The notes under the pieces are model-generated. The model saw only the letters and a program-made list of their open reading frames with translations, was not told where the DNA came from and searched no databases. Below are positions 6,224 through 60,755 of a stretch of 64,000 bases of DNA, one piece after another. Origin of the DNA: Siphonodentalium dalli. Taxonomy: Eukaryota; Mollusca; Scaphopoda; Gadilida; Siphonodentaliidae. The translations under genes and the position numbers were made by a program. How positions within the stretch are numbered: position 1 is the stretch's first letter; each line of letters opens with the position of its first letter. Location: NCBI GenBank assembly GCA_032622095.1, contig CP136066.1, forward strand, positions 42,111,835 through 42,175,834. Reading direction: 5' to 3'.

Positions 6224-6674
6224 TGTGACCCGCCATATAAAATCCTGTCGTAAGTCGGGATTTTTTTACCCTGTGCCAATGCATTCTCTTATATATGCGA
6301 GTCGACCATAGGTCGCCTCGCATATATAGGAGAATGCATTGGCCTAACAATTTTTTACAATTTTAATAATTTTTCTTGTATTCTTTAACAATTTTATAAT
6401 TTTACCCATACAGAGCCCCAGACAAACATGAGCAGACGACACTCTTCTATATGCTTCTATATATGTGTGGGGCTCCCTGTAGGGTAATGGATGTTTTTTA
6501 TTTTATGTCCTAAAAATTGTAAGAAACATAAAAAAATGATAAAAAATTGTAAGGCCAATGCATTCTCTTATATATGCGAGACGACCTATGGTCGACTCGC
6601 ATATATAAGAGAATGCATTGGCACAGGGTAAATAAAATCCGGACTTGCGACTGGATTTGATATGGTGGGTCACA
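6224..6674. mobile_element. MITE B1 with paired hairpins
   Basis: Ends TGTGACCCGCC and GGTGGGTCACA, extending ~45 bp as inverted repeats (GTCGTAAGTCGGGA and complement). Two ~69-bp hairpins lie at 6275-6343 and 6554-6622, each with GCCAATGCATTCTC arms. Their loop sequences are reverse complements of each other (GTCGACCATAGGTCGCC against GGCGACCTATGGTCGAC form). A third central stem has GAGCCCC...GGGGCTC ends around 6413-6473. The right flank is TA; the left flank is AA. Confidence 0.85.
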
Positions 6675-6679
6675 TATAT

Positions 6680-7245
6680 TCTTCAATTTGACTGAATTAT
6701 GAGGATGTCGCCTCCCTACGCCTGAATCCTGAATACCAGCTGGGATACCTGGCGTTGCACGGGTAAAGAATGAGTAAATTGTTAGTGCCCAACAATCTGG
6801 AGACACTCTGGATAAATTTACCTCTATATCTCTTATGTTGAAAATTAATGCTCTGTTGCCAATTATCAGTGTCTATGTCACCTGATGTCAAAAAGGCAAC
6901 TATCCCATTATGCTTCCCTTGTCAAATTACTCTTGTGTGCCAATTTACACATATCTTCACTGATTTGATAATAAATGCTCATTGATCATCTATGTCAATA
7001 TAATTTATTTGTCACCATTTAAGTCATCTGAGGTCAAAGGCTCCTAGTCCATGATATTTCCATGGCCAGGTGACCTCTGTGTACCAATTTTCCTACATAT
7101 CGTCTCAGCTGATGCCCCTTTAAAGGCATAGGCGGCCTTCGTTGCAGACATATTCATATTTGTTCAAATCGCCATCAACAGAAGGAATATTAAAATATAT
7201 ATAGTTTTGTTCATATGCCAAACATAATCAGCGCGTCAATAGTAT
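6680..7245. other. No feature seen
   Basis: Non-coding sequence with a few loosely similar GTCA-rich phrases (ACCTCTGTGTACCAATTTTC) that recur as degenerate copies near 8690-8960. No gene or complete element recognised. Confidence 0.35.
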
Positions 7246-7249
7246 ATTG

Positions 7250-7680
7250 TCGTCAAGACGTACAATGCTGTACGTAAACAAGAGCCTGCTCATGTTACAC
7301 AAGTTTTGCTTCTGTTTACATAACACAGCTCAGTTCTATTGGTTAATCACACACAAATGGTATAAACGCTCTTTATTATTTCCATATCAGGAAAACAGTA
7401 ACAAACTAGAATGCACTCACTGGAGCTGCCTATACTTGCGCCCATCACACATTTTGGCATGTTGTGTGGTGTCTTGCCAACAACAGTTTGAACCACGGTG
7501 CTGGCCCCTCGTTTGAGAGATCGATAACAAAAATCTAGATATCAAATCTCTGTTCATCCATCGCTGAAATAGTTGTGTGTACGGACATAATATCCCTGTT
7601 ATGATGATATGGACCCCAGTTGGCTGCATATTAGGAACGATAACTCTATCCGATCTAATTAACAGGTGAGACATATTGGT
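7250..7680. repeat. Dispersed repeat, inverted copy at 37.6 kb
   Basis: The stretch AATGCACTC...GAGCTGCCTATACTTGCGCC then ATCACACATTTTGGCATGTT and GAGAGATCGATAACAAAAA matches the complement of 37690-37840. The shared block is at least 150 bp with moderate divergence. It has no ORF of its own, and the family is not recognised. Confidence 0.55.
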
Positions 7681-7785
7681 AGTGTTTTTTACCTGTTAAC
7701 CAACTATCAGATTTAGGCCACTCCTATGCATGGTGTATTATCTACATGTATATTACGTGAGGACCTTGGTGGGGTTAGCTTCAGT

Positions 7786-8056
7786 CTTGAATGTTAAAGT
7801 GACACACTGCGCTCGCTGAACGAAGTCTCTCCATGTGAACGATGTATTATCTACATGTATATCACGTGATGACCTCGCTGAACGATGGGCAGCTTCCGCC
7901 CTGAATATTAAAGGGACAAAATGCACTCAGTATTTGAATATTAAAGGGACAATAGGCTCTCACGGGGGATGATTGTTAAAGTGACACAAGGCACTCACTA
8001 TGGATGAATGTTAAAGTAACACTAGGCACTCACTGTGGGATAATGTTAAAGTGACA
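7786..8056. repeat. Degenerate ~34-bp repeats related to element T ends
   Basis: About seven imperfect units of the form GAATGTTAAAGTGACACAAG plus GCACTCACTATGG. The unit resembles the termini of the 44-46 kb elements T1/T2 (TTAAAGGGAC...GCACTCGCAG), so this may be a small array grown from an element end. Confidence 0.6.
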
Positions 8057-8199
8057 TTTGCATTGAAAACTTCAAACGCGTTGACGTGCGCGTTACTAGG
8101 ACTGACCCGCAGTTTATAAGGGTATACGTCTTGGATGGTAATTTGGCGCCTATAACAATTACTAAGTTTTTTGAAGTTTTTGAAAGTTTTGAAATTTTT

Positions 8200-8445
8200 T
8201 TAATTTTTCAATATTGTTCATTTATGAACGATTTATTACCAAAATAAAACCAGATGACGATGCAAGTTAAGTATATATGTGGATTTAAATTACAATTGAT
8301 GCAACCATTTCATATTTTGCGTGTCCATTATTTACAGTATGTACTTCCGGTATGACGTAACATGTTCGCGGAAGGACAGACAGACAAAGATCCGAACCGA
8401 AAACATTACTTGCGTCCAGCATGGACTGGCGCAAGTAATTAACGC
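8200..8445. repeat. Dispersed repeat N, copy 1
   Basis: About 240 bp present inverted at 36662-36900. Shared landmarks are ATTTATGAACGATTTATTA, AACCAGATGACGATGCAA, TACTTCCGGTATGACGTAAC and an imperfect palindrome ACTTGCGTCCAGCATGGACT. No ORF. Confidence 0.6.
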
Positions 8446-8499
8446 TCTTTATGTTTACCATATCCGGATCTAAACAAAAGCCAGGGTCTGTAACGTGTT

Positions 8500-9060
8500 T
8501 TGCTTTTGTTTACATAACAAAGGAAAAGCATTTGACAATAACATACTGTTTATGCCATATTTCTGATTGATATAAGAACAAGGTCTGTCTATATTTTACT
8601 ATTCTTTCTGTTTATGGCGGTTTTTGACGGAGGTGAATATAACAGCATATTTGTACCCACCGCCAACGCCGCCCGTATCTTTAAGTCGTGTGGTGTCAAT
8701 GGTACCTATCCCATGACACTCTGGTCAATTACCCATGTGAACCAATTTTCAAAGACCAGATACCAACCGTTTTGGGTTATTTAATTAAAGTTGTTATTAA
8801 GTACTCTTTTAAGGTGTGTGAGGTAAATGGCACCTATTCCATGACACTCATCGGGTCAATATGCCCCAGTGAATCAATTTTCAACGACCAGATTCCAACC
8901 ATTTTGGTTATATAATTACATTTGATGTCGACGGCACCTATATCCCATGACGCTCTCCTGGTCAATTGGCCTTGTGTATAAATCGTCATCTCCGAGGATC
9001 CAGTCGTTTGGTCGCATAGCCCCATAGACAAACACACGAACTTGAGTTTTATTAGTGTAT
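8500..9060. repeat. Loose ~140-bp repeated phrase, non-coding
   Basis: Two to three diverged copies of GTGTCAATGGTACCTATCCC with ATGACACTC and CAATTTTCAAAGACCAGAT (about 8690, 8818 and 8925). The open frame 8688-8915 is only a by-product of this repetition. Function unknown. Confidence 0.4.
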
Positions 9061-9062
9061 AC

Positions 9063-11711: not shown

Positions 11712-11719
11712 TTGGTTAT

Positions 11720-12456: not shown

Positions 12457-12575
12457 TTAACCCTTTCAGTGCCAGGGGCCGATCTCATCGGCCCTAATTT
12501 ACGGTCTGTAAAATCGGCCCTAAAAATGTTTTATTTTCTTTGAAAGTTTTTGGAAAAAAATTTGGGTATGCTTAA

Positions 12576-13158: not shown

Positions 13159-13308
13159 TTAAGCATTCTATAGCGAATTTAAAAACAAACTGGATAAAAC
13201 CTTAGGGGCATGTTATAACTCAAAACTATCACCAAGTATTCATAGTAATAATTTTGATGCCCATGAAAAACGTGAGATTCCCTGGCACTAAACCTACAAA
13301 ATAAGTCT

Positions 13309-13467
13309 GTTAAAGAATATAAGAAAAAATTATTAAAATTGTAAAAAATTGTAAAAAAAATAATAACAAATGATGAAAAATTGTAAAGGCCAATGCATTC
13401 TCTTATATATGCGAGGTGACGTATGGTCGACTCGCATATATAAGAGAATGCATTGGCACAGGGTATA
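13309..13467. mobile_element. Half MITE of the B/C hairpin group
   Basis: Only the right part is present: the AT-rich spacer (TTAAAGAATATAAGAAAAAA), one hairpin (about 13390-13457) and GCACAGGGTA. The outer terminus is missing, so B and C cannot be told apart. Lies in element L. Confidence 0.7.
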
Positions 13468-13509
13468 TTGGTTGATACAAAAATCGGACCTGGCACTCAA
13501 AGGGTTAAA

Positions 13510-14198: not shown

Positions 14199-14202
14199 TT
14201 AA

Positions 14203-14739: not shown

Positions 14740-14774
14740 GGTCGCTGGTGCAATTATGCCCTCAATGCTTTAGT

Positions 14775-18450: not shown

Positions 18451-18910
18451 TGTGACCCGCCATGTCAAATCCAGTCGTAAGTCGGGATTTTTTTACCCTG
18501 TGCCAATGCATTCTCTTATATATGCGAGTCGACCATAGGTCGCCTCGCATATATAAGAGAATGCATTGGCCTAACAATTGTTTACAATTTTAATAATTTT
18601 TTCTTGTATTCTTTAACAATTTTATAATTTCACCCATACAGAGCCCCAGACAAACATGACCAGACGACACTCTTCTATATGCTTCTATATATGTGTGGGG
18701 CTCCCTGCAGGGTAATGGATGTTTATTATTTTATGTCCATAAAAATTGTAAGAAACATTTATTTAAAAAAAATGATAAAAACTTGTTAGGCCAATGCATT
18801 CTCTTATATATGCGAGGCGACCTATGGTCGACTCGCATATATAAGAGAATGCATTGGCACAGGGTAAAAAAAATCCCGACTTACGACTGGATTTGATATG
18901 GCGGGTCACA
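18451..18910. mobile_element. MITE B2, complete, TA-flanked
   Basis: 460 bp, TGTGACCCGCC to GGCGGGTCACA, with TA at 18449-18450 and 18911-18912. Hairpins lie near 18503-18571 and 18789-18857. A central GAGCCCCAGACAAACATGA...GGGGCTCCCTGCAGGGTAA stem lies between them. Confidence 0.9.
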
Positions 18911-19839: not shown

Positions 19840-20328
19840 ATAATAAATACGATTCGAAGACCCCTGCCCGGAAACACGTCTATCAATTAATATTGATCTT
19901 ATTTAAAATGTTTTTCGTATAAAATAACTCTGTCCCGTTCAATAATGGTCCCTAATATTAACGACCATCTTTTTTATTTGCGTTTGTTTATTATTTTTAG
20001 TTATTTGAATCATTGAAAATAAGCATATGGTACACTCTGAATCTTATCTACTTAATTCGCACTTAATATTACACTAGATACAATCAATCGGAAGCCATTA
20101 TTTTCTTAACCAGTAAAGAATCGAAACAGCCCCGGCCATAACCCCATCATTAGTGACATATTTATTATAAGCCTATGAATACAACCAATACATATGTATT
20201 AACACATACAGATGCATCCCATAAGTGGTTTGGATACTTTATTTGTCTATTATGAACTACATTCTATCCTTTCCATTATCATTTCACTTCATTAGTTGCC
20301 ACTTCATGTTTGTATACGTTGGGGCGAC
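19840..20328. other. No feature seen
   Basis: AT-rich sequence with no recognised gene or repeat edge. Confidence 0.4.
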
Positions 20329-20585
20329 AGGGAGCCACACACATATATAGAAGCACCTAGAAGAGTGTCGTCTGCTCATGTTTGTCTGGGGCTCTGGATG
20401 GGTGAAATGATAAAATTGTTAAAGAATACAAGAACAAATTATTAAAATTGTAAAAAATTGTTAGGCCAATGCATTCTCTTATATATGCGAGGCGACATAT
20501 GGTCGACTCGCATATATAAGAGAATGCATTGGCACAGGGTAAAAAAAATCCCGACTTCCGACTGGATTTGATATGGCGGGTCACA
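20329..20585. mobile_element. MITE B6, right half only
   Basis: Begins in the central stem (GGAGCCACACACATATATAG), then has the spacer, one hairpin (about 20463-20531) and the complete right end ...GATATGGCGGGTCACA. The left half is absent. Confidence 0.8.
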
Positions 20586-21248: not shown

Positions 21249-21643
21249 CCCTTTACCCAACAAACCGGCCAAAACCGGCCAAATAAAGCTGCAACAGCCT
21301 AAATTAACTTGGGTCTGTCTCAATAAAACCATACAAATATGGATATCATTGGAACCGGCTCATTGCCCACATTGTGATAGTTACAGTTATACCCTGTGCC
21401 AATGCATTCTCTTATATATGCGAGTCGACCATAGGTCGCCTCGCATATATAAGAGAATGCATTGGCCTAAAAAAAAAACTTTTTTTAACACTTTTTACCA
21501 TTTTTTCTTACATTCTTTAACAATTTTATATTTTAATGTGTTAAGCCAATGCATTCTCTTATATATGCGAGGCGACCTATGGTCGACTCGCATATATAAG
21601 AGAATGCATTGGCACAGGGCCGTTCTGTTGGGTAAAGGGTTGG
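21249..21643 (+). mobile_element. MITE C1 with the B-type paired hairpins
   Basis: Left end TTAA plus CCCTTTACCCAACA, with CCGGCCAAAACCGGCC just inside. The right end is TGTTGGGTAAAGGG. Two hairpins (about 21398-21466 and 21546-21614) use the same arms as family B and the same reverse-complement relation. The right flank is TTGG, so one TTAA has mutated. Confidence 0.85.
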
Positions 21644-30212: not shown

Positions 30213-30276
30213 TGTGACCCGCCATATCAAATCCAGTCGTAAGTCGGTATTGTTTTACCCTGTGCCAATGCAGTCT

Positions 30277-30318
<42 letters not shown>

Positions 30319-30669
30319 AGAATGCATTGGCCTAACAATTTTTTATCATTTTTTTTAAATAAATGTTTCTTACAATTTTTAGGACATAAAATAAAAAACA
30401 TCCATTACCCTGCAGGGAGCCCCACACATATATAGAATCATATAGAAGAGTGTCGTCTGCTCATGTTTGTCTGGGGCTCTGTATGGGTGAAATTATAAAA
30501 TTGTTAAAGAATACAAGAACAAATTATTAAAATTGTAAAAAATTGTTAGGCCAATGCATTCTCTTATATATGCGAGGCGACCTATGGTCGACTCGCATAT
30601 ATAAAAGAATGCATTGGCACAGGGTAAAAAAATCCCGACTTACGACTGGATTTGATATGGCGGGTCACA
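30213..30669. mobile_element. MITE B3 inserted in the LINE; one hairpin replaced by TA repeat
   Basis: TGTGACCCGCC to GGCGGGTCACA with TA on both flanks (30211-30212, 30670-30671). The left hairpin has lost its CGAGTCGACC core and is now a (TA) run of about 40 bp at 30276-30316 between GTCTCT and AGAGAATGC. The right hairpin (about 30549-30617) is intact. It interrupts the LINE between LFSH and the KRGVVVSLY motif. Confidence 0.9.
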
Positions 30670-34741: not shown

Positions 34742-35123
34742 CCCTTCCATGGCTGGAGCTTCCTGTAGGGAGCCCCATACAGGTGGCAGCTGCATGGTAT
34801 TGCTGAGTGTCGTCTGCTCACGTCTGTGAGGGGCTCCATAAGGGTAGTTTAACACTTCCATGACTGGAGCTTCCCTGAAATTTGGCGGAAAACCTGTGCC
34901 AATTCATCATCTTATATATGCGAGTCTCCCATAGGGAGTCTCGCATATATATAAGAGAATAAATTGGCCTTTTCAATAATTACATTGACCTGATCGTAAG
35001 CCATTGTATTATATTATATATGCTAGGCTCCCTATGGCAACTCGGATATATAAGAGAATACACTATAGCACAGGATCTTTAATCTGCACCATCGCAGCTC
35101 CCACCACGAACCCCATGAAAGGG
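34742..35123. mobile_element. MITE X1 (TTAA, CCCTTCCATGG end) with B-like modules
   Basis: After TTAA (34738-34741) comes CCCTTCCATGGCTGGAGCTT. The right end is CCATGAAAGGG followed by TAAA. It contains a hairpin at about 34897-34968 (CCTGTGCCAATTC, TATATGCGAG...CTCGCATATATA) and a second decayed one to 35078. It also has GGAGCCCC...GTGTCGTCTGCTCA...GGGGCTCC, the same central stem as family B. It is therefore built from the same parts with different outer ends. Confidence 0.7.
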
Positions 35124-35872: not shown

Positions 35873-36100
35873 GTCTGAGTTTAGTGTGTAGACATGTCAT
35901 TTGCAGAATGGGGTCCCCAGAGGGTGAATTTAGTGACACTGTCGCGCATAGCATCACTAAATTCACCCTCTGGGGACCTCATTCTACATAGGCCTCATCT
36001 TCTCTGGAAAGTTTCTTTATTATCAAATTTCTATAGAAACTTCTTCACGTAGATTCTATTTCTTTCTTAGCTTAGTTTCTCTATATCCCCAAATTGGCAG
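35873..36100. mobile_element. Foldback element A3, left half, fused to B fragment
   Basis: The terminal arm (TGTCATTTGCAGAATGGGG) and hairpin (about 35906-35986) are followed by the inner sequence of A4 in inverse order (CTCATCTTCTCTGGAAAG, AATTTCTATAGAAACTTC). It stops at CCCCAAATTGGCAG, next to a B/C-type fragment beginning ACCATAGGTCGCC. Confidence 0.7.
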
Positions 36101-36250
36101 ACCATAGGTCGCCTCGCATATATAATTTTATCTTACATTCTATAACAATTTTTATCATTTTGTCTTATATTCTTTAACAATTTTATCATTTTTATCGTTT
36201 TTTTCTTACATTCATAAACTATTTTATAATTTTTTGAATAATGTTTTCTT
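36101..36250. mobile_element. Fragment of a B/C-type hairpin and spacer
   Basis: Begins inside the hairpin loop (ACCATAGGTCGCCTCGCATA) and continues into the spacer with ATTCTTTAACAATTTTA repeated about three times. No termini. Confidence 0.65.
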
Positions 36251-37840: not shown

Positions 37841-37969
37841 TTTTCGTTTATATCAGGTTGAATAAATGATTTTTAATCTGAGCCTTTCCATGTCAATGTG
37901 CATTGATAGATCCTTGAACATTTAGCAAGCTGGCATTTTTATTACCCATTGCTGTCATCCCTCATTAAC

Positions 37970-38351
37970 CCTTTACCCAACAGAAGGGCCCTGTGCCAAT
38001 GCATTCTCTTATATGTGCGAGTCGACCATAGGTCGCCTCGCATATATAAGAGAATTCAATGGCTTAAAACATTAAAAATTATAAAATTGTTAAAGAATGT
38101 AAGAAAAAATGGTAAAAAAAAAAAAAAATTTAGGCCAATGCATTCTCTTATATATGCGAGGCGACCTATGGTCGACTCGCATATATAAGAGAATGCATTG
38201 GCACAGGGCATAACTGTAACCATCACAATGTGGTCAATGAGCCGGTTCCAATGATATCCATATTTGTATGGTTTTATTGAGACAGACCCAATATAATTTA
38301 GGCTGTTGCAGCTTTATTTGGCCGTTTTTGGCCGGTTTGTTGGGTAAAGGG
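37970..38351 (-). mobile_element. MITE C2, TTAA-flanked
   Basis: TTAA at 37966-37969 and 38352-38355. Left end CCCTTTACCCAACAGA, right end TTTGTTGGGTAAAGGG. Hairpins at about 37994-38062 and 38133-38203, with the CCGGCC unit near the right end, so it is reversed relative to C1. Confidence 0.9.
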
Positions 38352-39985: not shown

Positions 39986-40012
39986 GAGTATATACCAGTT
40001 AACAGAGGGGTA

Positions 40013-40535
40013 CACTCTTAGAACAAAAGTGTATAAATACTACACAATATGTGTTACATTTGATCTGAAACAAAATTGTGTAGAAATGCAACATGACATA
40101 AATGTGTCGGTGGAATTTTCTCAACATTGAATATGAGTGAATATGTGAGTATATTATATTTAATAGATGAGATATTTTCTATTTGAGACATAAACCTCGT
40201 AAAAGCTGCCATAATAAAATATTGGCAGCTGCTTTAAAACTTTGTGCTACACAATTATGTGTTGTTCAGTTTTTACACAAACATAGTGTATAACAAAGTT
40301 TAAAGCTGCTGCCAATTGTTTGTTCTGTGGTAGCCTTTATGAGTTTTGTGTCTCCAATATAACACATTTCATCTAATAACTATGATACACTCACATATTC
40401 AATCATATTCAACGTTGATGATATTCCACCGACATATTTAATAATGATATGTCATGTGTCATTTCTACACAATTTTGTTTAAGATCAAATGTAACAAATT
40501 TTGTGTAGTATTTATACACATTTGTTCTAAGAGTG
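40013..40535. mobile_element. MITE F1 (CACTCTTAGAAC ends)
   Basis: 523 bp, TA on both flanks (40011-40012 and 40536-40537). It is almost a complete inverted repeat: TGTGTATAAATACTACACAA and ATTGTGTAGAAATG at the left are mirrored at the right, and GGCAGCTGCTTTAAA faces TTTAAAGCTGCTGCC in the centre. F2 has exactly the same length. Confidence 0.9.
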
Positions 40536-40539
40536 TAAA

Positions 40540-42793: not shown

Positions 42794-43252
42794 TGTGACC
42801 CGCCATATCAAATCCAGTCGTAAGTCGGGATTTTTTTACCCTGTGCCAATGCATTCTCTTATATATGCGAGTCGACCATAGGTCGCCTCGCATATATAAG
42901 AGAATGCATTGGCCTAACAATTTTTTACAATTTTAAGAATTTTTCTTGTATTCTTTAACAATTTTATAATTTCACCCATACAGAGCCCCAAACAAACATG
43001 AGCAGACGACACTCTTATATATGCTTCTATATATATGTGGGGCTCCCTGCAGGGTAATGGGTGTTTTTTTATTTTATGTCCTAAAACTTGAAAGAAACAT
43101 TTATTTAAAAAAAATGATAAAAAATTGTTAGGCCAATGCATTCTCTTATATATGCGAGGCGACCTATGGTCGACTCGCATATATAAGAGAATGCATTGGC
43201 ACAGGGTAAACAAAATCCCGACTTACGACTGGATTTGATATGGCGGGTCACA
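42794..43252. mobile_element. MITE B4, complete, TA-flanked
   Basis: TGTGACCCGCC to GGCGGGTCACA; TA at 42792-42793 and 43253-43254. Hairpins near 42846-42914 and 43131-43200, with the central GAGCCCC/GGGGCTC stem between. Confidence 0.9.
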
Positions 43253-44130: not shown

Positions 44131-44849
44131 AGGCACACAAGACACTCGCAGTGGGTTAAGGGGGCGCTCCATAATGGGCAAACAATATATATCTCAGTAA
44201 AAGATCACAACTATGAATAACATTACTTATGTCATTGTTTTACTCGTGCGTTTTTGTGCTCTTTACCCAACAAACCGGCCAAAACCGGCCAAAACCGGCC
44301 AAATAAAGATTCAACAGCCTAAAATATCTTCGGTCTGTCTCAATAGAACCATACAAATATGGATATCATTGGAACCGACTCCTTGACCACATTGTGATAG
44401 TTACAGTTATGCCCTGTGCCAATGCATTCTCTTATATATGCGAGTCGACCATAGGTCGCCTCGCATATATAAGAGAATGCATTGGCACAGGGCCGTCCAG
44501 AAATAGATAAGCTATGTGCTTATATTTATTATTGATACTTCTCCAATAACAGTTTTGCGCGTGTTGAAACCATTGAAGATGTAATCAAAACTGTTACAGT
44601 GATTTGTCAATAAACGTCGCTAATCGTGAAGTAAGTTCAACTAATGTTAGTCTCAATATGAATTAAGAATATTTTTCAATGCTCTGACATTTTTGAATGT
44701 TTCCCGTCATATTTTTATTAAACTTATCTTATGGTACTAATTGGATTTCTATCTGTAATTCCACTGTAACAGTAATATTTACATAATAATGGTTTTGACA
44801 AAACCTTTTTAATGTTTCACATTACCAACTGTGTGTGCCTTCTGTCCCT
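44131..44849. mobile_element. Element T1 (TTAA), containing truncated C4
   Basis: TTAA at 44127-44130 and 44850-44853. Ends AGGCACACAAGACACTCGCA and TGTGTGCCTTCTGTCCCT. The interior aligns loosely with T2 but lacks the H2 and D2 insertions, giving empty-site comparisons. Confidence 0.6.
44261..44496 (+). mobile_element. MITE C4, truncated to one hairpin
   Basis: Starts CTTTACCCAACAAA (outer CC lost), has three CCGGCCAAAA units instead of two, then the shared internal block (CATACAAATATGGATATCAT) and a single hairpin (about 44418-44486) that ends in GCACAGGGCCG. The spacer and second hairpin are missing. Confidence 0.8.
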
Positions 44850-46179: not shown

Positions 46180-46458
46180 TTAAGTAGTTTAGTTTGAATA
46201 TTATTTTCAGAATATTTTTCAATGCTTTGACCTTTTCCAATGTCTGTCGTCAAGTTTTGATTAAAATTTGGTATCTTATTGGACTAATTGGACTGTTGTC
46301 GGTAAGTCCACCCTAACAATACTGTTTGCTTTATAACAATGTTTTTTACATATGCAATCTCATTATTTTGAAATTATTAACAATGAGAATAAGACAAAAG
46401 TAAATCTATTTTTTCTCGCAATTTTATGGTGGTGATGTTTTTACAGACTTCTATCATA

Positions 46459-46671
46459 CAGTAATGCCCTAAGTAATCGACCTCTTAACCAAAGCAGAAT
46501 TATGGGTAACTTTTCAGGATTTAGTCGGAAATATGGCTTGTTGCCATTCATCGGAAAGCTCTCGCCGAGAGCTTTCCGATGAATGGCAACAAGCCATATT
46601 TCCGACTAAATCCTGAAAAGTTACCCATAATTCTGTTTTGGTTAAGAGGTCGATTACTTAGGGCATTACTG
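46459..46671. mobile_element. Palindromic MITE D2, TA-flanked
   Basis: A 213-bp near-perfect palindrome centred near 46565 (AGCTCTCGCCGAGAGCT). The ends CAGTAATGCCCTAAGTAATC and complement are flanked by TA on both sides. Arms of ~100 bp would extrude as one long hairpin. Confidence 0.9.
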
Positions 46672-46715
46672 TATTTACACATTTACCCACTGCGAGTGCC
46701 TTTATATCACTTTAA

Positions 46716-49698: not shown

Positions 49699-50159
49699 TG
49701 TGACCCGCCATATCAAATCCAGTCGTAAGTCGGGATTTTTTTACCCTGTGCCAATGCATTCTCTTATATATGCGAGTCGACCATATGTCGCCTCGCATAT
49801 ATAAGAGAATGCATTGGCCTAACAATTTTTTATCATTTTTTTTAAATAAATGTTTCTTACAATTTTTAGGACATAAAATAAAAGACATCCATTACCCTGC
49901 AGGGAGCCCCACACATATATAGAAGCATATAGACGAGTGTCGTCTGCTCATGTTTGTCTGGGGCTCTGTATGGGTGGAAATTTTAAAATTGTTAAAGAAT
50001 ACAAGAAAAAATTATTAAAATTGTAAAAAAAATTGTAGGCCAATGCATTCTCTTATATATGCGAGGCGACCTATGGTCGACTCGCATATATAAGATAATG
50101 CATTGGCACAGGGTAAACAAAATCCCGACTTACGACTGAATTTGATATGGCGGGTCACA
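49699..50159. mobile_element. MITE B5, 30 bp past the follistatin stop codon
   Basis: TGTGACCCGCC to GGCGGGTCACA; TA at 49697-49698 and 50160-50161. Hairpins about 49751-49819 and 50039-50107. Since the gene at 50190-50611 reads leftward, this element starts 28-30 bp after its stop and so is probably transcribed in the 3' untranslated region. Confidence 0.9.
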
Positions 50160-50189: not shown

Positions 50190-50611
50190 CTAGAAAGGTA
50201 TCGGGATATTGTTTTTACTAGAATATCTCTTCCGATAGTATTTTCTGAAGTATCGCAACCTCCGCTTTGATCTTGATTTATGAAACTTCTTCTTGTTTCG
50301 CTTCTTTCTGCGCTTCTTTTTCTGTTTCCTTTTGTGCAGCCACCGCTTCTTGTTGTATTTGTCGTCTGCTTTCGAGAGCATTATCGCCTCATCATGAGGG
50401 CACATACCCCTCGAGGTTACTTTGATCCTCTTCCCGAGCTTACACGCCTCCACTCTCATGTGGCACCGCGATCTGTATGTGGCGCCATTGTTTCCACACA
50501 CCTCCTTCTTGCGACGCCGACATATGTATTCCGTGGGACAAATACACAGCGGTAGCCCCTGCTCGTTAACTCTGCATACTTTGTACTTTGGGCACGACAC
50601 CTTCTGGCACG
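50190..50611 (-). CDS. Last exon of a secreted follistatin/Kazal-domain protein with basic tail
   Basis: The acceptor TATTTTCAG ends at 50612 and the exon opens at 50611, leaving a phase-1 join. The ~140 residues begin with one complete follistatin-type domain of ten cysteines: CQKVSCPKYKVC forms the small N-terminal lobe, and VCGNNGATYRSRCHMRVEAC is the Kazal core with the usual C-G-x-x-G-x-T-Y pattern. After the last Cys (GMCPHDEA) comes a ~45-residue stretch that is mostly Lys/Arg (KRKQKKKRRKKRNKKK is part of it), then a short end IPIPF and TAG. Known family members bind proteases, TGF-beta-type ligands or matrix; the basic tail suggests heparan-sulphate or other polyanion binding, which is inference. 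Signal peptide and other domains would lie in upstream exons at higher coordinates, not found here. The in-frame extension past 50612 (Met/Ile-rich) is satellite sequence, not protein. Confidence 0.8.
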
Positions 50612-50961
50612 CTGAAAATAGAGAGAAAGGCAATGATTCACAATCATCATCAGCATTATTATTACGATCCTCAATAATTATCACTACCATCATTATTATA
50701 ATCATCATTATCACTATCATCATTATTATTATCATCATTATTAATATCTTCATTATCACGATCATCAACATCCCAATCAGCGCGTTATTCTCTCGTCTAA
50801 GTTATTACAGAAAAGTATATTGTCGTCACCATCATCATCACCACCATCTTTACCAACAACACCATCATCATCATCACCAGAATCATCATCAGCACCACTC
50901 CATCCCAATTAATGCTTGTTCCTAGAAGTACAGTGTTATTGCTGTTCCATATTAACAAATC

Positions 50962-50985
50962 CGTATGGAACGTACGTTCCATACG
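50962..50985. repeat. 24-bp perfect palindrome
   Basis: Centred on ACGTACGT (CGTATGGAACGT followed by its exact complement). Lies in a non-CAY interruption (50930-51150) of the satellite. Confidence 0.85.
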
Positions 50986-51149
50986 CATCTCGTTGACGTA
51001 AAATGACGTACATGACGTTCGCTTCAACCATGAAACTGGAACTATTTAAATAAAAGAATCATCACACATGACAAACATGCCATGTGTGAGCCTAAATAAA
51101 CATTCTGATCCTGTATTTTTAATGCACGGATTCTAGGACACGAAGCGTG

Positions 51150-51321
51150 TAATAAACACAGAACGACACGATGTGTAAATGGGTTTGTCGATACAGCACT
51201 CGTTCTGTCGCGGAAGGATAGAACTCGAGGCGCAAGCGCCTCTCGTTCTATCCTTCCGCGACAGCACTCGTGCCGTATCGACAAACCCATTTACACATCG
51301 TGTCGTTCTGTGTATTTATTA
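51150..51321. repeat. 172-bp palindrome interrupting the satellite
   Basis: Arms of ~80 bp: AATAAACACAGAACGACACG, AATGGGTTTGTCGATAC and TCGCGGAAGGATAGAAC face their complements. The centre is GAGGCGCAAGCGCCTC at about 51228-51243. It is GC-richer than its surroundings, with few mismatches (one is ACAGCACTCGTTC against ACAGCACTCGTGC). Likely an inserted foldback element; no other copy in the window. Confidence 0.85.
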
Positions 51322-54300
51322 GCTCTTCCAAGTTGCTACAGAAAGGTCTATTGTCATCACCATCACCATTCATCACCACCATCACCAACAACATCATCAT
51401 CACAATTATCACCAGCAATCTCGATCAATGCTTTATTCGATCATCTAAGTTATTAGATAACGGATATTTTCGTCGTCGCCATCACCATCATCATCACCAT
51501 CAACATCACCACTACCAACAACATAATCACAATCACCATCCCATCCTAATCACCAGTAAATGCTTTATTCGCTCAGCTAAGATATTACATAAAATGATAT
51601 CGTCATCACCAACATCATCACCATCACCACCACCACCAACAACAACAACAACAACAACATAATCACCATTACCACCATCATCATCACTACCACCATCGTC
51701 ATCACCATTCCATCCTAATCACCAAGCAATGCTTTATTCGCTTATCTAAGATATTACATAAAAGGATATTTTCATCACCAACATCATCACCATCACCACC
51801 ACCAACAACAACAACAACATAATCACCATTATCACAATCATCATCACTACCACCATCGTCATCACCATTCCATCCCAATCACCAAGCAATGCTTTATTCG
51901 CTTATCTAAGATATTACATAAAATGATTTGTCATCACCAACATCATCACCATCATCATTACCACCACCATCATCAACAACATCATCACCACTACCATCAT
52001 CATCATCAGCACCACCATCATCAACAACAACATCACCACCACCATCACCATAATCAGCACCACCCCATCACAATCAATGCTTTATTCGCTCATCTAAGTT
52101 ATCACATAAAATTATATTGTCACCAGCATCACCATCAACAACACTTATTACATAATAGGATATGGCATATGCATCATCATCATCATCATCACCACATCAT
52201 CATCATCACCACCACATCATCATCACCACCTCATCCCGATCAATGCATTATTCGCTCATCTAAGTTATTACGAAAAATGATATTGTCATCAGCATCACCA
52301 TCACCGTCACCATCAACAACACTTATTACATAATAGGATATGGTATATGCATCATCATCATCATCATCATCACCACATCATCATCATCACCACCACCACA
52401 TCATCAGCACCACCTCATCGCGATCAAAGCATTATTCGCTCATCTACGTTATTAGGAAAAAATGATATTGTCATCAGCATCACCATCACCGCCACCATCA
52501 ACAACACTTATTACATAATAGGATATGGCATATGCATCATCATCATCATCATCACATCATCATCATCACCACCACCACATCATCAGCACCACCTCATCGC
52601 GATCAATGCATTATTCGCTCATCTACGTTATTACGAAAAATGATATTGTCATCAGCATCACCATCACCGCCACCATCAACAACACTTATTACATAATAGG
52701 ATATGGCATATGCATCATCATCACCACCACCATCATCATCACCACATCATCAGCACCATCACCACATCATCACCACCACCACCACATCATCAGCACCACC
52801 ACCACATCATCATCATCACCATCTCATCCCGATCAATGCATTATTCGCTCATCTAAGGTATTACGAAAAATGATATTGTCATCAGCATCACCATCACCGC
52901 CACCATCAACAACATTTATTACATAATAGGATATGGCATATGCATCATCATCACCACCAACACCACATCATCATCATCACCACCACCACCATCACCACCA
53001 CATCATCATCACCACCACCACATCATCAGCACCACCTCATCCCGATCAATTCATATTCGCTCATCTACGTTATTACGAAAAAGGATATTGTCATCAGCAT
53101 CACCATCACCGTCACCATCAACAACACTTATTACATAATAGGATATGGCATATGCATCATCGTCACCACCACCACCATCACCACCACATCATCATTACCA
53201 CCACCACATCATCAGCACCATCTCATCCCGATCAATGCATTATTCGCTCATCTGAGTTATTACGAAAAAGGATATTGTAATCAGCATCACCAACATCATC
53301 AGCAACAACATAATCACCACCACTATCATCAGCACCATCACCACCATCATCATCACCACCATCATCATTACCATCACCACCACTATCATCACCACCATCA
53401 TCACCACCATCATCACCACCATCATCATCACCACTATCATCAGCACCATCACCACCATCATCACCACCACCATCATCACCATCAGCATCACCATCATCAG
53501 CACCATCTCATCCCGATCAATGCATTATTCGCTCATATAATTTATTACGAAAAATTATATTGTCATCACCATCACCATCACCATCATCAACAACATCATC
53601 AATATCACCATCAGCACCATCACTACCATCACCGCCATCATCAACACCATCATCATCATCACCACTACCATCATCACCATCATCATCATCATCATCACTA
53701 CCATCACCACCATCACCACTACCATCATCACCACCATCAACAACATCATCACCATCACAACTACCATCATTAGCACCACTCCATCCCGATCAATGTTTTA
53801 TTGCAAAATAGGATATTGTCATCATCATCGTCGTCAGCATCATCATCGTCGTCGTCATCATCATCATCATCACCATCTCATCCAATCCTTTATTCGCTCA
53901 TCTAAGTTACTACATTAAGGATATTGTCATCACCATCACCATCACCATCATCAACAACAACAACATCATCAATATCACCATCAGCACCATCACCACCATC
54001 AGCACCATCATCACCATCAACAACATCATCACCATCAACAACATCATCACCATCAACAACATCATCACCATCACCACTACCATCAGCACCATCAACAACA
54101 TCATCACCATCAACAACATCATCACCATCACCACCATCAGCACCATCATCACCACCATCAACAACATCATCACCACTACCATCAACAACATCATCACCAT
54201 CAACAACATCATCACCATCACCACTACCATCATCATCACTACCACCATCGTCATCACCATTCCATCCTAATCACAAAGCAATGCTTTATTCGCTTATCTA

Positions 54301-55269
54301 AGATATTACATAAAAGGATATTGTCATCACCAACATCATCACCATCATCATTACCACCACCATCATCAACAACATCATCACAACTACCATCATCATCATC
54401 AGCACCACCATCATCAACAACAACATCACCACCACCATCACCATAATCAGCACCACCCCATCACAATCAATGCTTTATTCGCTCATCTAAGTTATTACAT
54501 AAAATGATATTGTCACCAGCATCACCATCAACAACACTTATTACATAATAGGATATGGCATATGCATCATCATCACCACCACCATAACCACCACATCGTC
54601 ATCACCACCACCACATCATCAACACCACCTCATCGCGATCAAAGCATTATTCGCTCATCTACGTTATTAGGAAAAAGGATATTGTCATCAGCATCACCAA
54701 CATCATCAGCAGCAACATAATCACCACCACCATCATCACCACCATCATCATCACCACCATCATCAGCACCATCTCATCCAATCCTTTATTCGCTCATCTA
54801 AGTTACTACATTAAGAATATTGTCATCACCATCACCATCATCAACAACATCATCAATATCACCATCACCACCATCATCACCATCAACAACATCATTACCA
54901 TCATCACCACCATCATCACCATCAACAACATCATTACCATCACCACTACCATCATCAGCACCACTCCATCCCGATCAATGTTTTATTGCATAATAGGATA
55001 TTGTCATCATCGTCGTCATCATCATCATCACCACCACCATCAGAAATATCACATCCCATCCCATCACAATCAAGGCTTTATTCGCTCGTCCAACATAAAA
55101 GGATTTTGGCATCTGCATCATCATCATCATCATCACCACCACCACCACCACGTCATCATCATCATCATCGTCGGCATTACCATCAAGAATAAGAAGAATA
55201 ACAACAACAACTTCATCGGCAGTCATCATCGCCATCGTCGTAGTCATCATCGCCATCATAAACGATGAC

Positions 55270-55730
55270 TCAGTTCGCTAATATACTGCTAAGAAAACAC
55301 ATCGTACGCACATTAATAAGAGGACCCGCGGTCTATTAATGAGTGCAGTGGCACCCTTGGGAACATGCTGGTAATAACACATATTTCACACATAACCATT
55401 TTGCAATCACGCCACAGAATATACACTTTTGCAGTCAATTGTTGCAAAATTGAGCATGTTAGTGACATTATCACCTTTTAATCTCTTCCACGATGCACAT
55501 GATTCATACTCCCTTGTGTTTGTACCCGATGGCTTCGGGTAACCGATTGCGTAACAAGAAACACCTGCTGAGAATGAGGGGTTCGTTTTAGACGGTTGAT
55601 GATTTCTACAGCATGAAGAATGTTGAAACATGCATTACGGTATTTCCATCAACATTATACCAGTCATCATTAATTCGCTCGAGAACTTAGTCAGAATCTT
55701 ATCACAATTCCCGGGGGGGGGGCCTGTTTT
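55270..55730. other. No feature seen
   Basis: Non-coding sequence between the satellite and a SINE. No follistatin-gene exon with a Cys-rich or signal-peptide pattern was found here. Confidence 0.4.
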
Positions 55731-55732
55731 TC

Positions 55733-56010
55733 AGTCGGTAATGTCCAATGTGCATCCGGCCGTCGTGAGCCGCCCATGCATCGCTGGAGAAGTTGGTTCC
55801 AATCCCGAAAGGCGCAGTATGTACTGGGGTAACAAGATTCATGTATCTGGGCAAGAAGTATAAGTTGCTTTCCGGGGGTCCGTGGTTTCTACGTGCAGTG
55901 ATTTCCTGGTAAAATTAACCCTCTGGTGGGTTTTCCTCCTACCGTATAACTGAGAACGTCGTGAAACGTCGCTGAAACAACGATAAACTCCAATAAACCA
56001 ACACCAGCAT
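55733..56010 (+). mobile_element. tRNA-derived SINE
   Basis: A Pol III B-box match GGTTCCAATCC (55795-55805) is followed about 40 bp later by TCTGGGCAAGAAGTATAAG, then by GGTGGGTTTTCCTCCTACCG and a tail AACTCCAATAAACCAACACC. These body phrases are typical of SINEs widespread in invertebrates. The A box is not clear, so the 5' end is decayed. A fragment CTTCCAATCCCGAAAG also occurs at 56226. Confidence 0.6.
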
Positions 56011-56059
56011 AATTCCCTCCGCCTCAGGACATCACTACACGTAGTAACCACGACCACCC

Positions 56060-56136
56060 TATGTGAGACTCGCATATATAAGAGAATGCATTGGCACAGT
56101 GTTTTCGAAAAATTTCAGGAAGCTCCAGTCATGGAA
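56060..56136. mobile_element. MITE X3, right end fragment
   Basis: GACTCGCATATATAAGAGAA, GCATTGGCACAG, then GAAGCTCCAGTCATGGAAGGG before TTAA. Right half-hairpin and terminus of family X. Confidence 0.65.
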
Positions 56137-56139
56137 GGG

Positions 56140-57340
56140 TTAAAGATGTGTTCAAGGGTCCAGGCTGATGTTACGAACCTGTTTTACATTTTATTTATAT
56201 GATAAATATAAATAACGTGTTTTTGCTTCCAATCCCGAAAGAAGTACTGTAAAAAAGATGATGTTTTTTCTGTGCATTTATTTCATATCATATCGTTTCG
56301 ACGCTTTAGAGGGACTCGGATACACTCAAATTATATTGTAAAAGTGCACGGATGGCCTCCGTTATAGGTTATATATTTGGAAATAACATTTACCAAATTA
56401 TGAACATGTCCTCAAGAATACGCTACTATATAGTATAGTATAATGATGGTATGAAAGGATATTATCCACAAAACACACTTTGTGTGAGCCGAGCATTTGT
56501 TTATAAACAGCACGTAAATAGTGAGCGATAAGCAAAACACACCGTGGTGGGTTTTTTTAGGAGCGTGATTCACGGTGACACATTCAAAACCGAAATCTTC
56601 AAGTTGAGGGGCAAGGTGCATAATAGCTACAGGAATGGACGTGCCATCTCCCCATCACTCAGGGTCGTAGATAGCTGGTTATCTCCTCACTACCACTCAG
56701 AGGCGTATATAGCTGGAGGAATCGACGTACCATCTCCCCACCATTCAGGGGCGTGGCTAGAGGAATCGACGTACCATCTCCCCATCACGCAGGGGGCGTG
56801 GCTAGAGGGTCGTCACCCCATCGATCAGGTACGTAACTGGCGGGTCTTTGTCTTTGGGTGTCCAACTTAGAACTTGGCCGAAAATTCAAACTCTTGGAAT
56901 TTTCAATTACACCCCTTCTGTGTCGTAAGTTTCCAACTGATACCCTACACTTAACATTCTACTGACGGTGTTTTTTCCGATGGAATGGTTGCACGGCCAC
57001 TAAGTGGTTTACCGACCTGCCACCTGATGCTACAGACATTGTGATTTCTCCTACACCTGTCGTATACCGTGATAACGATTCTAACAGCACACATCGGCTA
57101 GTGTGATTATTCGTGTAAGTACAATATTTGGATAGTGTGATTGCTTAATTGCCAGACTGGAGGTTTTCATGTGATTGAAGACCACCAAGAATAATAAGCG
57201 TGGCTGGAATGCATGTTGTATGTGTTGGTTTATATAAGAAGGATCGGTTGGTTTGGCCAAGAGTTTGCATTACAATAACCTGTAAATTGTGTTGTTTACT
57301 TTATCGGGAATATGGTTCGCGCTGCCGGTGCAAAATGTAC
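56140..57340. other. Non-coding; short duplicated GGAATCGACGTACCATCTCC
   Basis: Three to four related phrases (GGAATGGACGTGCCATCTCC, GGAATCGACGTACCATCTCC twice) at 56632, 56716 and 56762 with CGTGGCTAGAGG form a small degenerate tandem repeat of ~45-70 bp. No gene supported. Confidence 0.5.
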
Positions 57341-57342
57341 CA

Positions 57343-57478: not shown

Positions 57479-57489
57479 GCAAATGGATT

Positions 57490-58070
57490 TTTAATAATTT
57501 GGTGTGAACTATCTAGTCATTTAACACAAACGAAAGTAGATTATCCGTTACGCGTGTGCCGACAATATGACAAATATAAGCAAGGTGAAACCTGATCAAC
57601 AAATATATCAGCCTGGCGGTCAGCAATGATATGTCGATAGCGATATGTAATCTTCTTAATTTTCACAAACAGAAATACTTTCTTTCTGTTATATCAAACT
57701 TTCATCAAATAGTTGAACAACCGTAGTTAGATATGAGTCAGAACAAAAACAAATTCTGTAAAGTTTTCATTGAAGCTGGTGTATGAGTGACTTGGAGGCC
57801 ATCAATGTATATTTCATCCCGATTCGGGAATAGACCCACAAGGATCATTGAGCATGGTGTATTTTTAGTGACAGAAAACAAAAAATATACACAATATCTT
57901 CTAAATCCATCGACACCAAGGATAGCCAAGTCCTTATGCAGATTTATTAAAGTGGCATACGAGCTTAGTGTGACATTGGAATAACTATAGAAATATGATG
58001 CCATATGATATAGTGTCAGTTTACGACACAGCCATATATATAATAATATGTATAAACACTCTCCTATATG
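57490..58070. other. Unassigned; open frames on both strands at 57738-58004
   Basis: A minus-strand frame of 88 codons ends with DEIYIDGLQVTHTPASMK, and a plus-strand frame of 65 codons overlaps it. Neither shows a recognised domain. Low confidence that either is coding. Confidence 0.25.
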
Positions 58071-58072
58071 TA

Positions 58073-58583
58073 CACTGTAAAGAACCCACCGTAATTTTTA
58101 CGGTAGAGTACCGGCAGCTCAGTTGCCAGTAGTCTATGGTATAATTTACAGTATACCGTATATTCTACTACCGTGTAATTATACCATAATACCGTCAAAT
58201 ATACAGTACACCGTATATTCCACTACCGTATAATTATAAAATTATACCGTCAAATATACAGTACACCGTATATTCCACTACCGTATAAGCATACAAACAT
58301 GCTCAATGGTTGATTGAAATTTGGCCGTAAATGGCGTAATGGCTAAAATTATACAAAACCTTGACAAACACACTAAGAACAACCCAACAACTGTTTTTTT
58401 CGCAACGATTGACTAACACACGACTTCACAATCCGAGAAAATGGCGTCGGCGATCAGACTCTTCCCAAAATACATAGCGCGTGCACGCGCCATTAACAGT
58501 ATTACCGTAAATATAGATATTACCGTACATACCGTTAAATTAACGGTATTCTACCGTTGAAAATACGGCTGTTTAATACAGTG
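58073..58583. mobile_element. MITE W (CACTG ends, ACCGTA-rich)
   Basis: CACTGTAAAG... to ...TAATACAGTG with TA on both flanks (58071-58072, 58584-58585). The arms are rich in ACCGTA/TACGGT, and a ~65-bp unit (ACAGTACACCGTATATTCCA) is tandemly repeated near 58150-58290. Termini of this kind occur in many animal non-autonomous DNA elements; the superfamily is not settled here. Confidence 0.75.
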
Positions 58584-58589
58584 TATATG

Positions 58590-59155
58590 TACACCCCAAT
58601 TCCCTGTACTATTCCGTACTCAAAGTCCCCAAATGTTTTCTTTTTTCGTATATATTATACAATTTGTAATTAAAGTTTATTTATTTACTTATTTATAATT
58701 TAATTATTATTTGTATCACATTATGTTATTACGTTTTATATTTAGATCACACTGAATGGTTGGCCATTATCCAATAAACAATTGAATTGTATATCATCTG
58801 TGGTTGACTCACTTTGAGTGAGTATTTTCACTATATAACTATGATTTATCCCAATAATACCAATGGTAAACGCAATGTAAATGCAATGTCACGATTTCGA
58901 TTTGTTTCGTTCCGTTGATTTGCATATATCCGCTTATTTTTGTGACACCATCCCCTACCTGTCGCGTTTAATCAGTATATTAGTATACGCACGAGAGAAG
59001 AGCACATGGTTTAATCAGTGTATAAGTACACGCACGGAAGAAAAGCATATGGTTTTGCGGCACTTCCAACTCGGTGCGAAACATTGCGGATATATTGGTC
59101 ACATAAATAATCACAGTTTGTTTCAGCGCGCGATGTTTGATAATAAAGCCTCGTA
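58590..59155. other. No feature seen
   Basis: AT-rich non-coding sequence; the two ~96-codon frames at 58881-59237 lie on opposite strands over the same DNA and show no domain. Confidence 0.4.
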
Positions 59156-59160
59156 TAAAC

Positions 59161-59617
59161 ATCAAGCCTGAGTTTAGTGTGCCTGTCATTTGCAGAATGA
59201 GGTCCACAGAGGGTGAATTAGTGACGCTATTCCGCATAGCCGGCTAGCGTCACCTTATGTGGACCTCATTATGCATGGCCTAATCTGCTTGTGAGACATA
59301 GACTAAGATTAAAGTTTCCAAATGGTGAATATTGTGATGTACACCCATTGGGAACCTCGATTATGCAATGTGTGTCGTCTGCCAATTTGGGGATATAGAG
59401 AAACTAAACTTACAAAGAAATATAATCCATGTGAAGAAGTTTCTATAGAAATTTGATAATAAAGAAACTTTCCAGAGAAGATGAGGCCTAAGCGGAATGA
59501 GGTCCCCAGAGGGTGAATTTAGTGATGCTAGCCCTCTATGCGGGATAGCGTCAATAAATTCACCCTCTGGGGACCTCATTTTGCAAATGACAGGCTCACT
59601 AAACTCAGGCCTGCATC
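59161..59617. mobile_element. Foldback element A4, complete
   Basis: Ends CATCAAGCCTGAGTTTAGTG and CACTAAACTCAGGCCTG are inverted. Each carries a hairpin (about 59195-59274 and 59494-59585) built on GAGGTCCCCAGAGGGTGAAT. The middle holds GGGGATATAGAGAAACTAAA. The best-preserved member of the family. Confidence 0.8.
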
Positions 59618-59715
59618 TTGCCCATATCGGAAGTTCACACTTTAATTGAATTTCCATTCTGTGTAAAACGTATAGCTTTATAATTATGGGTTACGCACAC
59701 CGGGATATAACCTTA

Positions 59716-60070
59716 AGCTAGCCACACATGCTTGCGTATGCGTATGGTGCGCTGCGTTATTTTTATCGCATGCGATTGTCGGACGGAAAATAAAAAAGAA
59801 ATGCACGGGCACCCACACATGCATGCGGTTCCGATGCGAAACTATTCTGACGCTCCGAATGCCTCCGATTTTTATCGGACCGAAAATACTCGTATTTTCC
59901 ATCCGATAGAAATCGTCGCTCCGTTTGGGTTCGCATGTAAATCCATGGTGAAGTGACTGAAACGATCACTATCGGACAACGTTCGCATGACCCCAACGGC
60001 ACGATGAACGGATCCGACGAACGGGTCCGATTATTTTCGCTTACGCATATGCAAGCATGTGTGGCTAGCT
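59716..60070. mobile_element. Element P (AGCTAGCCACACATGC ends)
   Basis: Left AGCTAGCCACACATGCTTGC and right GCAAGCATGTGTGGCTAGCT are inverted copies. Inside, GCATGCGATTGTCGGACGG and TTCGGTCCGATAAAAATCGG-type sequence give further stems. GC-richer than its surroundings. A single copy in this window. Confidence 0.8.
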
Positions 60071-60074
60071 AGCT

Positions 60075-60358
60075 TTGTGTGACCCACATTATGTGAGTAG
60101 AGGGGGGGTGCCCTATAGCAGAAGAGTCCACAAAAGAGGTACCATGTCTTACCCACCGGAAGCTGACATACGCTAATGATAGGTAGAGCACTCTGCTGTA
60201 TAGGCAGTTTCTGATATAGTCATAAAGAATAGGAAAATAAAAGATAGCAGAAACCCAAAGAATACATACAGATTTTGTGTTATGATTTATGTTTCATAAT
60301 AAGAATCTAGTCCAATACTTGGACGTAAAGCATGCAGCTAGTGGAATTCCCTAGCTGC
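60075..60358. other. No feature seen
   Basis: Short AT-rich spacer between element P and MITE C3 with no recognised feature. Confidence 0.4.
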
Positions 60359-60363
60359 TTTAA

Positions 60364-60755
60364 CCCTTTACCCAACAGAACGGCCCTGTGCCAATGCATT
60401 CTCTTATATATGCGAGTCGACCATAGGTCGCCTCGCATATATAAGAGAATGCATTGGCTTAACACATTAAAAATTATAAAATTGTTAAAGAATGTAAGAA
60501 AAAATGGTAAAAAGTGTTAAAAAAAGATTTTTTTTAGGCCAATGCATTCTCTTATATATGCGAGGCGACCTATGGTCGACTCGCATATATAAGAGAATGC
60601 ATTGGCACAGGGCATAACTGTAACTATCACAATGTGATCAAGGAGCCGGTTCCAATGATATCCATATTTGTATGGTTCTATTGAGACAGACCGAAGATAT
60701 TTTAGGCTGTTGAAGCTTTATTTGGCCGGTTTTGGCCGGTTTGTTGGGTAAAGGG
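60364..60755 (-). mobile_element. MITE C3, complete, sharing TTAA with H3
   Basis: TTAA at 60360-60363 and 60756-60759. Ends CCCTTTACCCAACAGAACG and TTTGTTGGGTAAAGGG. Hairpins at about 60388-60456 and 60538-60606. The right TTAA directly starts element H3. Confidence 0.9.

Follow-up and report, generated by a model that had tools for sequence, protein, structure and literature searches.

How can transposable elements that differ in their ends, and even in their target sites, come to carry the same interior? The question is posed by 64 kb of the genome of the scaphopod mollusc Siphonodentalium dalli (GCA_032622095.1, CP136066.1:42,111,835-42,175,834, on contig C6; hereafter the window), where one hairpin recurs within several families of miniature inverted-repeat transposable elements (MITEs). 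A sequence-only reading of the window had placed the hairpin in three families, here termed B, C and X; all three exist, but a fourth, D, with a single hairpin at 13389, had been missed. Four families with tips that cannot be aligned thus carry a module built around this hairpin, with nearly the same outer boundary and in the same orientation, and the hairpins of B, C and D go back to one recent source, while their tips do not.

The genome comprises 2,226,750,531 bases in nine contigs. Our blind sample consists of 20 regions of 10 kb across the nine contigs, at round coordinates that were fixed beforehand and are not random. Other loci (L001-L008, L029-L048 and L063-L080) were chosen because they contain an exact hairpin arm, which introduces selection bias: such copies make up 5 of the 13 C, 10 of the 14 D and 3 of the 13 B sequences in the copy alignments. 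To offset this bias we quote, where they exist, subsets confined to window copies and blind-sample copies. L004-L007 and L031 duplicate another locus or belong to its array and are excluded from counts of elements and arms; loci within the sets L048/L073/L074, L076/L077, L046/L066 and L036/L078 share flanks and hence are not independent. The blind sample yielded 18 elements in 10 of its 20 regions, and the window 14 in 64 kb, which makes the window rich in these elements.

The hairpin is a 69-bp palindrome (GCCAATGCATTCTCTTATATATGCGAG-T-CGACC-ATA-GGTCG-C-CTCGCATATATAAGAGAATGCATTGGC): arms of 27 bp are separated by a single T·C mismatch from an upper stem of 5 bp, which is closed by the loop ATA, so that the stem amounts to 32 bp in all. 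Folded as DNA it reaches -36.1 kcal/mol (z -13.4). What had earlier been taken for its loop is mostly stem (T-CGACC-ATA-GGTCG-C), the true loop being ATA. The mismatch makes the palindrome directional, and in the rows read the CCCTGT side is turned toward the element tip. The module is wider than the hairpin, with CCCTGT on its outside and CCTAAC plus a T-rich spacer on its inside. Its outer boundary reads CCCTGTGCC in all four families, except at the right-hand end of X, where it is TCCTGTGCC. Measured from the tip, the module begins at 46-47 bp in 19 of 21 cases in B, at 40-42 bp in all 17 in D and at 38-41 bp in 12 of 14 in X; in C it begins at 21 bp in 16 and at 144 bp in 5 of 25. The X hairpin has the upper stem CTCCC-ATA-GGGAG where B, C and D have CGACC-ATA-GGTCG, and in several right-hand X hairpins an A-T pair has become G-C at arm position 5 (CCAGTGC...GCACTGG).

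The families differ in what surrounds the module. Elements of B (TA|TGTGACCCGCC, ~460 bp) contain two modules 46-47 bp from the tips and are flanked by TA on both sides in seven of eight listed copies (L011 was read beyond its listed end); by this target-site duplication, B would be a MITE of Tc1/mariner type. In C (TTAA|CCCTTTACCCAACA, ~390 bp) the modules are unequally placed, one 21 bp from its tip and the second ~144 bp from the opposite tip, and nine of ten listed copies have TTAA at both flanks (in L009 and L024 when one base beyond the border is included), the lone exception being the right flank of the copy at 21249. D (TTAA|CCCTTTSAGTGCCAGG, 454 bp in L011) has a single module 40-42 bp from one tip; TTAA is found at both flanks in L011, the window copy, L003 and L012, and as TTGA on the left of L017. 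X (TTAA|CCCTTYCATGACTGGAGC, ~250 bp) is old, with two modules that for the most part lie at 38-41 bp from the tips, TTAA on the left in three of six rows and a right flank that is mostly decayed. A terminal inverted repeat motif CC[C/T]T is present in the last three families (CCCTTTACCCAACA in C, CCCTTTSAGTGCCAGG in D and CCCTTYCATG in X, with their complements); C, D and X accordingly fit MITEs of the piggyBac/TTAA type, and three of the four families have piggyBac-type ends.

These assignments bear on several claims of the sequence-only reading. The hairpins occur in mirror-oriented pairs inside B and C, with the ends described for them, in the named copies, and all B, C and X copies that it named are present, although one C copy (37969) and one X copy (4399) start one base from where they had been placed, and the X element put at 34742 begins near 34849. 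The stretch 34742-34848 is a second X-like tip followed by a GAGCCCC...GGGGCTC stem, which B shares at its centre, as had been proposed for B and X. X does have decayed hairpins, ~16% different from the others; its ends are TTAA/CCCTT ends like those of C. TA and TTAA targets had been taken to imply different transposases. This applies to B; C, D and X all have TTAA/CCCTT ends, so that only B needs a different transposase, and of the repeated captures of new ends that had been suggested, those across superfamilies may come down to just one.

Among 93 module arms in the sampled loci (up to two mismatches), 77 could be assigned by their tip (21 to B, 25 to C, 17 to D and 14 to X), and 14 of the 16 without a tip were assigned by eye from neighbouring sequence (six to C, four to B, three to X and one to D). 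No solo module was found among these 93 arms: 91 lie inside B, C, D or X. The remaining two (L036 and L078) are segmental copies of one unassigned locus, which may or may not represent a fifth family. The different outer ends of L046 and L066 are no sign of a further family; both loci have one unique flank on contig C1 and probably derive from a B copy whose tips were lost and which was segmentally duplicated. No hairpin-free B or C was recognised in the window or in the 20 regions of the blind sample (in an empty C, ACAGTTAT would directly adjoin CCGTTCTG); two weak matches to the C tip without a module were listed there, but they do not look like C.

Genome-wide, the 14-base hairpin arm has 337,586 exact matches (168,925 + 168,661), compared to none (0 + 0) for the reversed control pattern, and chance is thus excluded. 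The arm preceded by CCCTGT occurs 152,002 times (76,182 + 75,820). The B boundary (TTTTA + CCCTGT + arm) accounts for 22,428 matches and the D boundary (CATATA + CCCTGT + arm) for 13,655. Of 100 listed CCCTGT-arm places on C1 (66 kb to 5.2 Mb), 15 are B and 28 D by boundary; 21 of the other 57 were looked at, and comprise 12 C, 6 X, 1 B and 2 unassigned. Several of the places sampled within the initial 5.2 Mb of this contig have common flanks, and at C1:742,000-926,000 arms recur at periods of ~14.6 kb and ~11.2 kb, showing that large tandem arrays contain hairpin elements. Viral contigs gave no hairpin matches in a collection that possibly does not cover records close to this genome.

We compared 45 modules from the window and blind regions over an 80-base stretch that includes flanks. 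Mean p-distances are as small between B, C and D as within them (B-B.0211, B-D.0206, D-D.0230, B-C.0308, C-C.0346, C-D.0316), and family labels do not predict the hairpin (the between-family mean exceeds the within-family mean by.00185; permutation p.25 over 35 hairpins). The outer parts and tips of different families find no better alignment than E.057. Hairpins equally close across B, C and D, behind tips that cannot be aligned, mean one recent source for the former and not for the latter. Modules of X stand apart, at.16-.17 from all other families and.17 among themselves. An X-type tip joined to a B/C/D-type upper stem (L072:1-201) hints that the two hairpin lineages have exchanged sequence, unless an old polymorphism is the reason. 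The unalignable tips and differing targets rule out the artefact of a single family, and the ends of C and X did not arise by secondary insertion next to those of B; the earlier proposal of one module in families with unrelated tips, at both TA and TTAA, therefore stands.

The palindrome is retained even as its bases change. In 36 aligned hairpins (of 43 distinct and near-full; a hairpin interrupted by (TA)n is among those excluded) 94.5% of cells pair, and pairing drops to 29-51% when the partner is shifted by one to three bases. Doubly changed cells number 28, compared to 8.7 in shuffles (0/500 as high), and doubly changed pairs 7, compared to 4.0 (8/500 as high); the copies are related, and these counts are not independent events. 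This shows that palindromy survives base changes through double changes. In C, variants common to several copies occupy none of 138 hairpin columns and 17 of 254 others (p.001; in eight blind copies, 0/138 and 13/254, p.005).

Candidate partners for the TTAA families exist, in that the genome has at least 128 matches to the piggyBac transposase domain, many without stops. One of 12 piggyBac loci has readable ends: L053, 3,411 bp, with perfect ends TTAA|CCCTTTATCTGCTATA that share only CCCTTT with the module families. Another piggyBac locus (L055, on contig C4) contains, from ~2266 and within the transposase frame, an almost perfect inverted duplication whose arms measure 68 bp; the domain is split in two likewise at 12 places of the piggyBac-domain listing, of which L055 alone was read.

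What, then, accounts for one hairpin behind unrelated tips? We tentatively favor, as plausible if short of probable, the view that the module is a portable subterminal palindromic cis element of MITEs, which would play a role like that of the piggyBac palindromes and would have moved between families, the TA family included. Source elements may have kept it as a subterminal palindromic binding site, and recombination or template switching at palindromes could have carried it whole from one MITE to another; in B it might still work, or be a hitchhiker that a TA transposase now moves. Two accounts of piggyBac (PMC7351741, PMC11707139) describe a TTAA target and identical 19-bp palindromic internal repeats, in two copies unequally distant from the tips, to which the C-terminal domain (CRD) binds as a dimer. 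The elements described here resemble this arrangement in their subterminal palindromes, in the unequal spacing of C and in the TTAA target of C, D and X; they differ in that the palindrome is 69 bp long and belongs to MITEs, whereas the 19-bp site is part of an autonomous element. A piggyBac-like binding site would fit the nearly constant distance from the tip, the outward orientation, the asymmetry of C and the dyad symmetry that has been kept. The variants that C copies have in common all fall outside the hairpin, so that the hairpin may act during transposition, and to this extent the suggestion of the sequence-only reading that it does something itself may hold; after insertion, B gives no sign of it. 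A role of each copy in place fits the pattern of change less well than does constraint in source elements, or a module that was supplied anew time and again.

Several results weigh against such a cis element. None of the 12 piggyBac loci examined is an autonomous carrier of the hairpin, with ends readable in one of the 12 and no search aimed at TA transposases, and L053 has neither the hairpin nor any long or comparable palindrome near its ends. The 69-bp palindrome is far longer than the 19-bp CRD site, and D bears it near one end only. Boundaries of B and D together identify 36,083 of the 152,002 arms, the other 115,919 being assigned from samples alone. In B the hairpin changes no more slowly than the remainder, whether by private changes (.0199 vs.0205 elsewhere) or by shared-variant columns (4/138 vs 5/321); B accordingly gives no sign of post-insertion upkeep by selection or conversion, and its inserted copies seem to decay freely. 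The shared-variant contrast seen in C is weak in D (0/69 vs 16/322, p.087). Private changes are fewer in the hairpin in both C (.0144 vs.0217, p.088) and D (.0126 vs.0309, p.001; p.057 in four blind copies), and this could reflect post-insertion upkeep or arm-based copy choice. A bolder form of the cis-element view, in which one palindromic module is recognised in the transposition of both TTAA and TA elements, through transposase domains or a host factor, and in which every high-copy family began when the module was transferred to new tips, we consider unlikely.

The even rate of change in B is what would be expected if the hairpin were a functionless passenger. Palindromes stall replication and provoke template switching; inner parts and ends would be swapped, those mosaics that happened to have good tips would be amplified, and copying between arms would restore palindromy. 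That the GAGCCCC stem of B recurs in L036 and in the X-like stretch at 34742, with different neighbours each time, speaks for such swapping, as do single-hairpin C elements with CCCTGT on both sides (44418 in the window, and L079), which look like a collapse between palindromes. Passive exchange has more difficulty with a near-fixed tip distance and constant orientation in four families, with C copies that have no hairpin variant in common, with the T·C mismatch, which persists though arm correction should remove it, and with the failure to recognise any B or C free of the hairpin in the window and 20 blind regions. We regard this passive origin as a real but somewhat doubtful possibility.

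The sharp outer border at CCCTGT raises a different prospect, namely that the unit was once an independent mobile element, with ends CCCTGTGCC...GGCACAGGG and two hairpins around a spacer, which inserted near the ends of several MITEs and later spread with them. TA does flank the unit on both sides in B (TTTA|CCCTGT...ACAGGG|TAAA). By eye, however, no target duplication is seen at both unit borders in C or X, D has a single hairpin, and no solo copy was recognised among the 93 arms, all of which make this origin rather unlikely. Descent of all families from a single two-hairpin ancestor, with tips that merely diverged, would account for the CCCTT that follows TTAA in C, D and X, and for X hairpins as older relatives of the others. 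It leaves aside B, with its TA target and TGTGACC tips; moreover, the modules of B, C and D are ~97-98% alike while the tips cannot be aligned, so that simple divergence needs strong constraint on the hairpin alone, and we think it very unlikely. That the hairpin is kept because it yields a small RNA or evades silencing seems very unlikely as well: DNA folding gives the module strand a stem of 32 bp and RNA folding gives a complete B element a strong structure, but the window has no Rfam match at gathering score.

Module-bearing elements and fragments in the window. Coordinates are window positions; the last column marks features that the sequence-only reading had left unlisted.
Positions	Strand	Family	Features	Earlier listing
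4399..4594	+	X	Strongly decayed
6224..6674	+	B	Two mirror hairpins, 6275-6343 and 6554-6622; left TA lost
12461..12526	+	D	Left part (TTAA; CCCTTTCAGTGCCAGG tip)	Unlisted
13159..13504	+	D	Right part; hairpin 13389-13457, tip CCTGGCACTCAAAGGG + TTAA	Unlisted
18451..18910	+	B	Full, TA at both flanks; hairpins 18502-18570 and 18790-18858, both equal to consensus
20328..20585	-	B	Partial (half); one hairpin, 20465-20533	Unlisted
21249..21639	-	C	CCCTTTACCCAACA tips (TTAA target); hairpins at 21398-21466 and at 21545-21613; TTGG instead of TTAA on the right
30213..30669	-	B	TA at both flanks; upper part of left hairpin replaced by (TA)n at 30279-30316
34742..34848	+	X-like	Second X-like tip after TTAA; GAGCCCC...GTGTCGTCTGCTCA...GGGGCTC stem shared with B centre
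34849..35123	-	X	Old; decayed hairpins 34898-34968 and within 34996-35075; first upper stem CTCCC-ATA-GGGAG
36100..36234	+		Half hairpin and tandem T-rich spacer units	Unlisted
37969..38351	+	C	TTAA at both flanks; hairpins 37995-38063 and 38134-38202
42794..43252	+	B	Full, TA at both flanks
44259..44498	-	C	Single hairpin 44418-44486, CCCTGT at both sides; tip past CCGTCC lost	Unlisted
49699..50159	-	B	Full, TA at both flanks
56057..56142	+	X	Element end with half hairpin, then TTAA	Unlisted
60364..60755	+	C	TTAA at both flanks; hairpins 60390-60458 and 60538-60606

The two D stretches are probably parts of the same element; 632 bp separate them, of which ~46 are expected as D's own. In the B copy at 30213 an exact (TA)19 run replaces the upper hairpin (30258-30336), a microsatellite within a palindrome. 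Tandem T-rich spacer units recur at L044:44-600, where they are followed by a hairpin fragment and adjoin a Helitron Rep-like coding stretch (PF14214, E 5e-14); a Helitron origin was considered on this account. Other inverted repeats in the window comprise a separate foldback family of nested inverted repeats (40011-40537 and 62406-62928; outer arms 347 nt apart in both) and a near-perfect inverted repeat at 46456-46674, with 109-nt arms and one base between them. An open frame on the minus strand at 50190-50801 encodes a Kazal domain (PF07648, E 5e-11); CAT/CAC-type repeats of several kb overlap and follow it (50677-55169), and GC skew is strong there (-0.556 at 52001-56000).

Hairpins in very many copies, mirrored about a spacer, are familiar from bacteria, where REPINs and REPs (repetitive extragenic palindromic sequences) are moved by RAYTs. 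REPINs have no outer terminal repeats and no TTAA or TA duplications, and their transposase acts on single strands. The elements of S. dalli are unlike the REPIN/RAYT system in that 91 of 93 module arms lie within B, C, D or X elements and so do not form hairpins, single or paired, that lack outer ends.

The usual explanation of MITEs is that they arise by deletion from an autonomous parent, whose tips they retain. A different pattern has been described in Acropora corals, in which six TTAA families of CMITEs have different CC[C/T]T... tips and a common 75-base inner region (Wang et al. 2010, PMC2872659). This inner region shows greater conservation than the tips, the same genome contains piggyBac elements, and tandem arrays occur; CMITEs are ~100 bp long, with ~1,600 copies in A. 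millepora, and the authors suggest that the inner region aids transposition and may permit cross-mobilization. By this description the likeness is close: a shared interior, differing TTAA-type tips, piggyBac in the genome and tandem arrays are common to both. Different TTAA tips around a more conserved interior are seen in C and D, and the X module is ~16% different. Unlike CMITEs, the elements described here carry a 69-bp palindrome, once or twice per element, and extend to a TA family, with 152,002 exact CCCTGT arms; the available part of the coral account mentions no palindrome, mirror pairs, TA family or such copy numbers. The same source describes the mosquito MITEs Microuli and Wuneng, elements of different end structure, both with TTAA, that have a short motif in common (PMC2872659), although as described there this motif is 7 bp only, compared to the 69-bp palindrome. 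Searching the literature for the element sequences returned no hairpin sequence and one unrelated match, to the 11-mer TGTGACCCGCC, and searching by topic gave nothing that we recognised as this hairpin. The shared-interior pattern thus has one precedent, in the coral CMITEs, while the hairpin and its presence in a TA family look new. Here, as in the corals, it is the interior that is common and the tips that differ, and here the module is found in a family with another target as well; with 152,002 exact arms in one genome, S. dalli offers a good natural test of whether subterminal palindromes, or terminal repeats alone, decide the amplification of MITEs.

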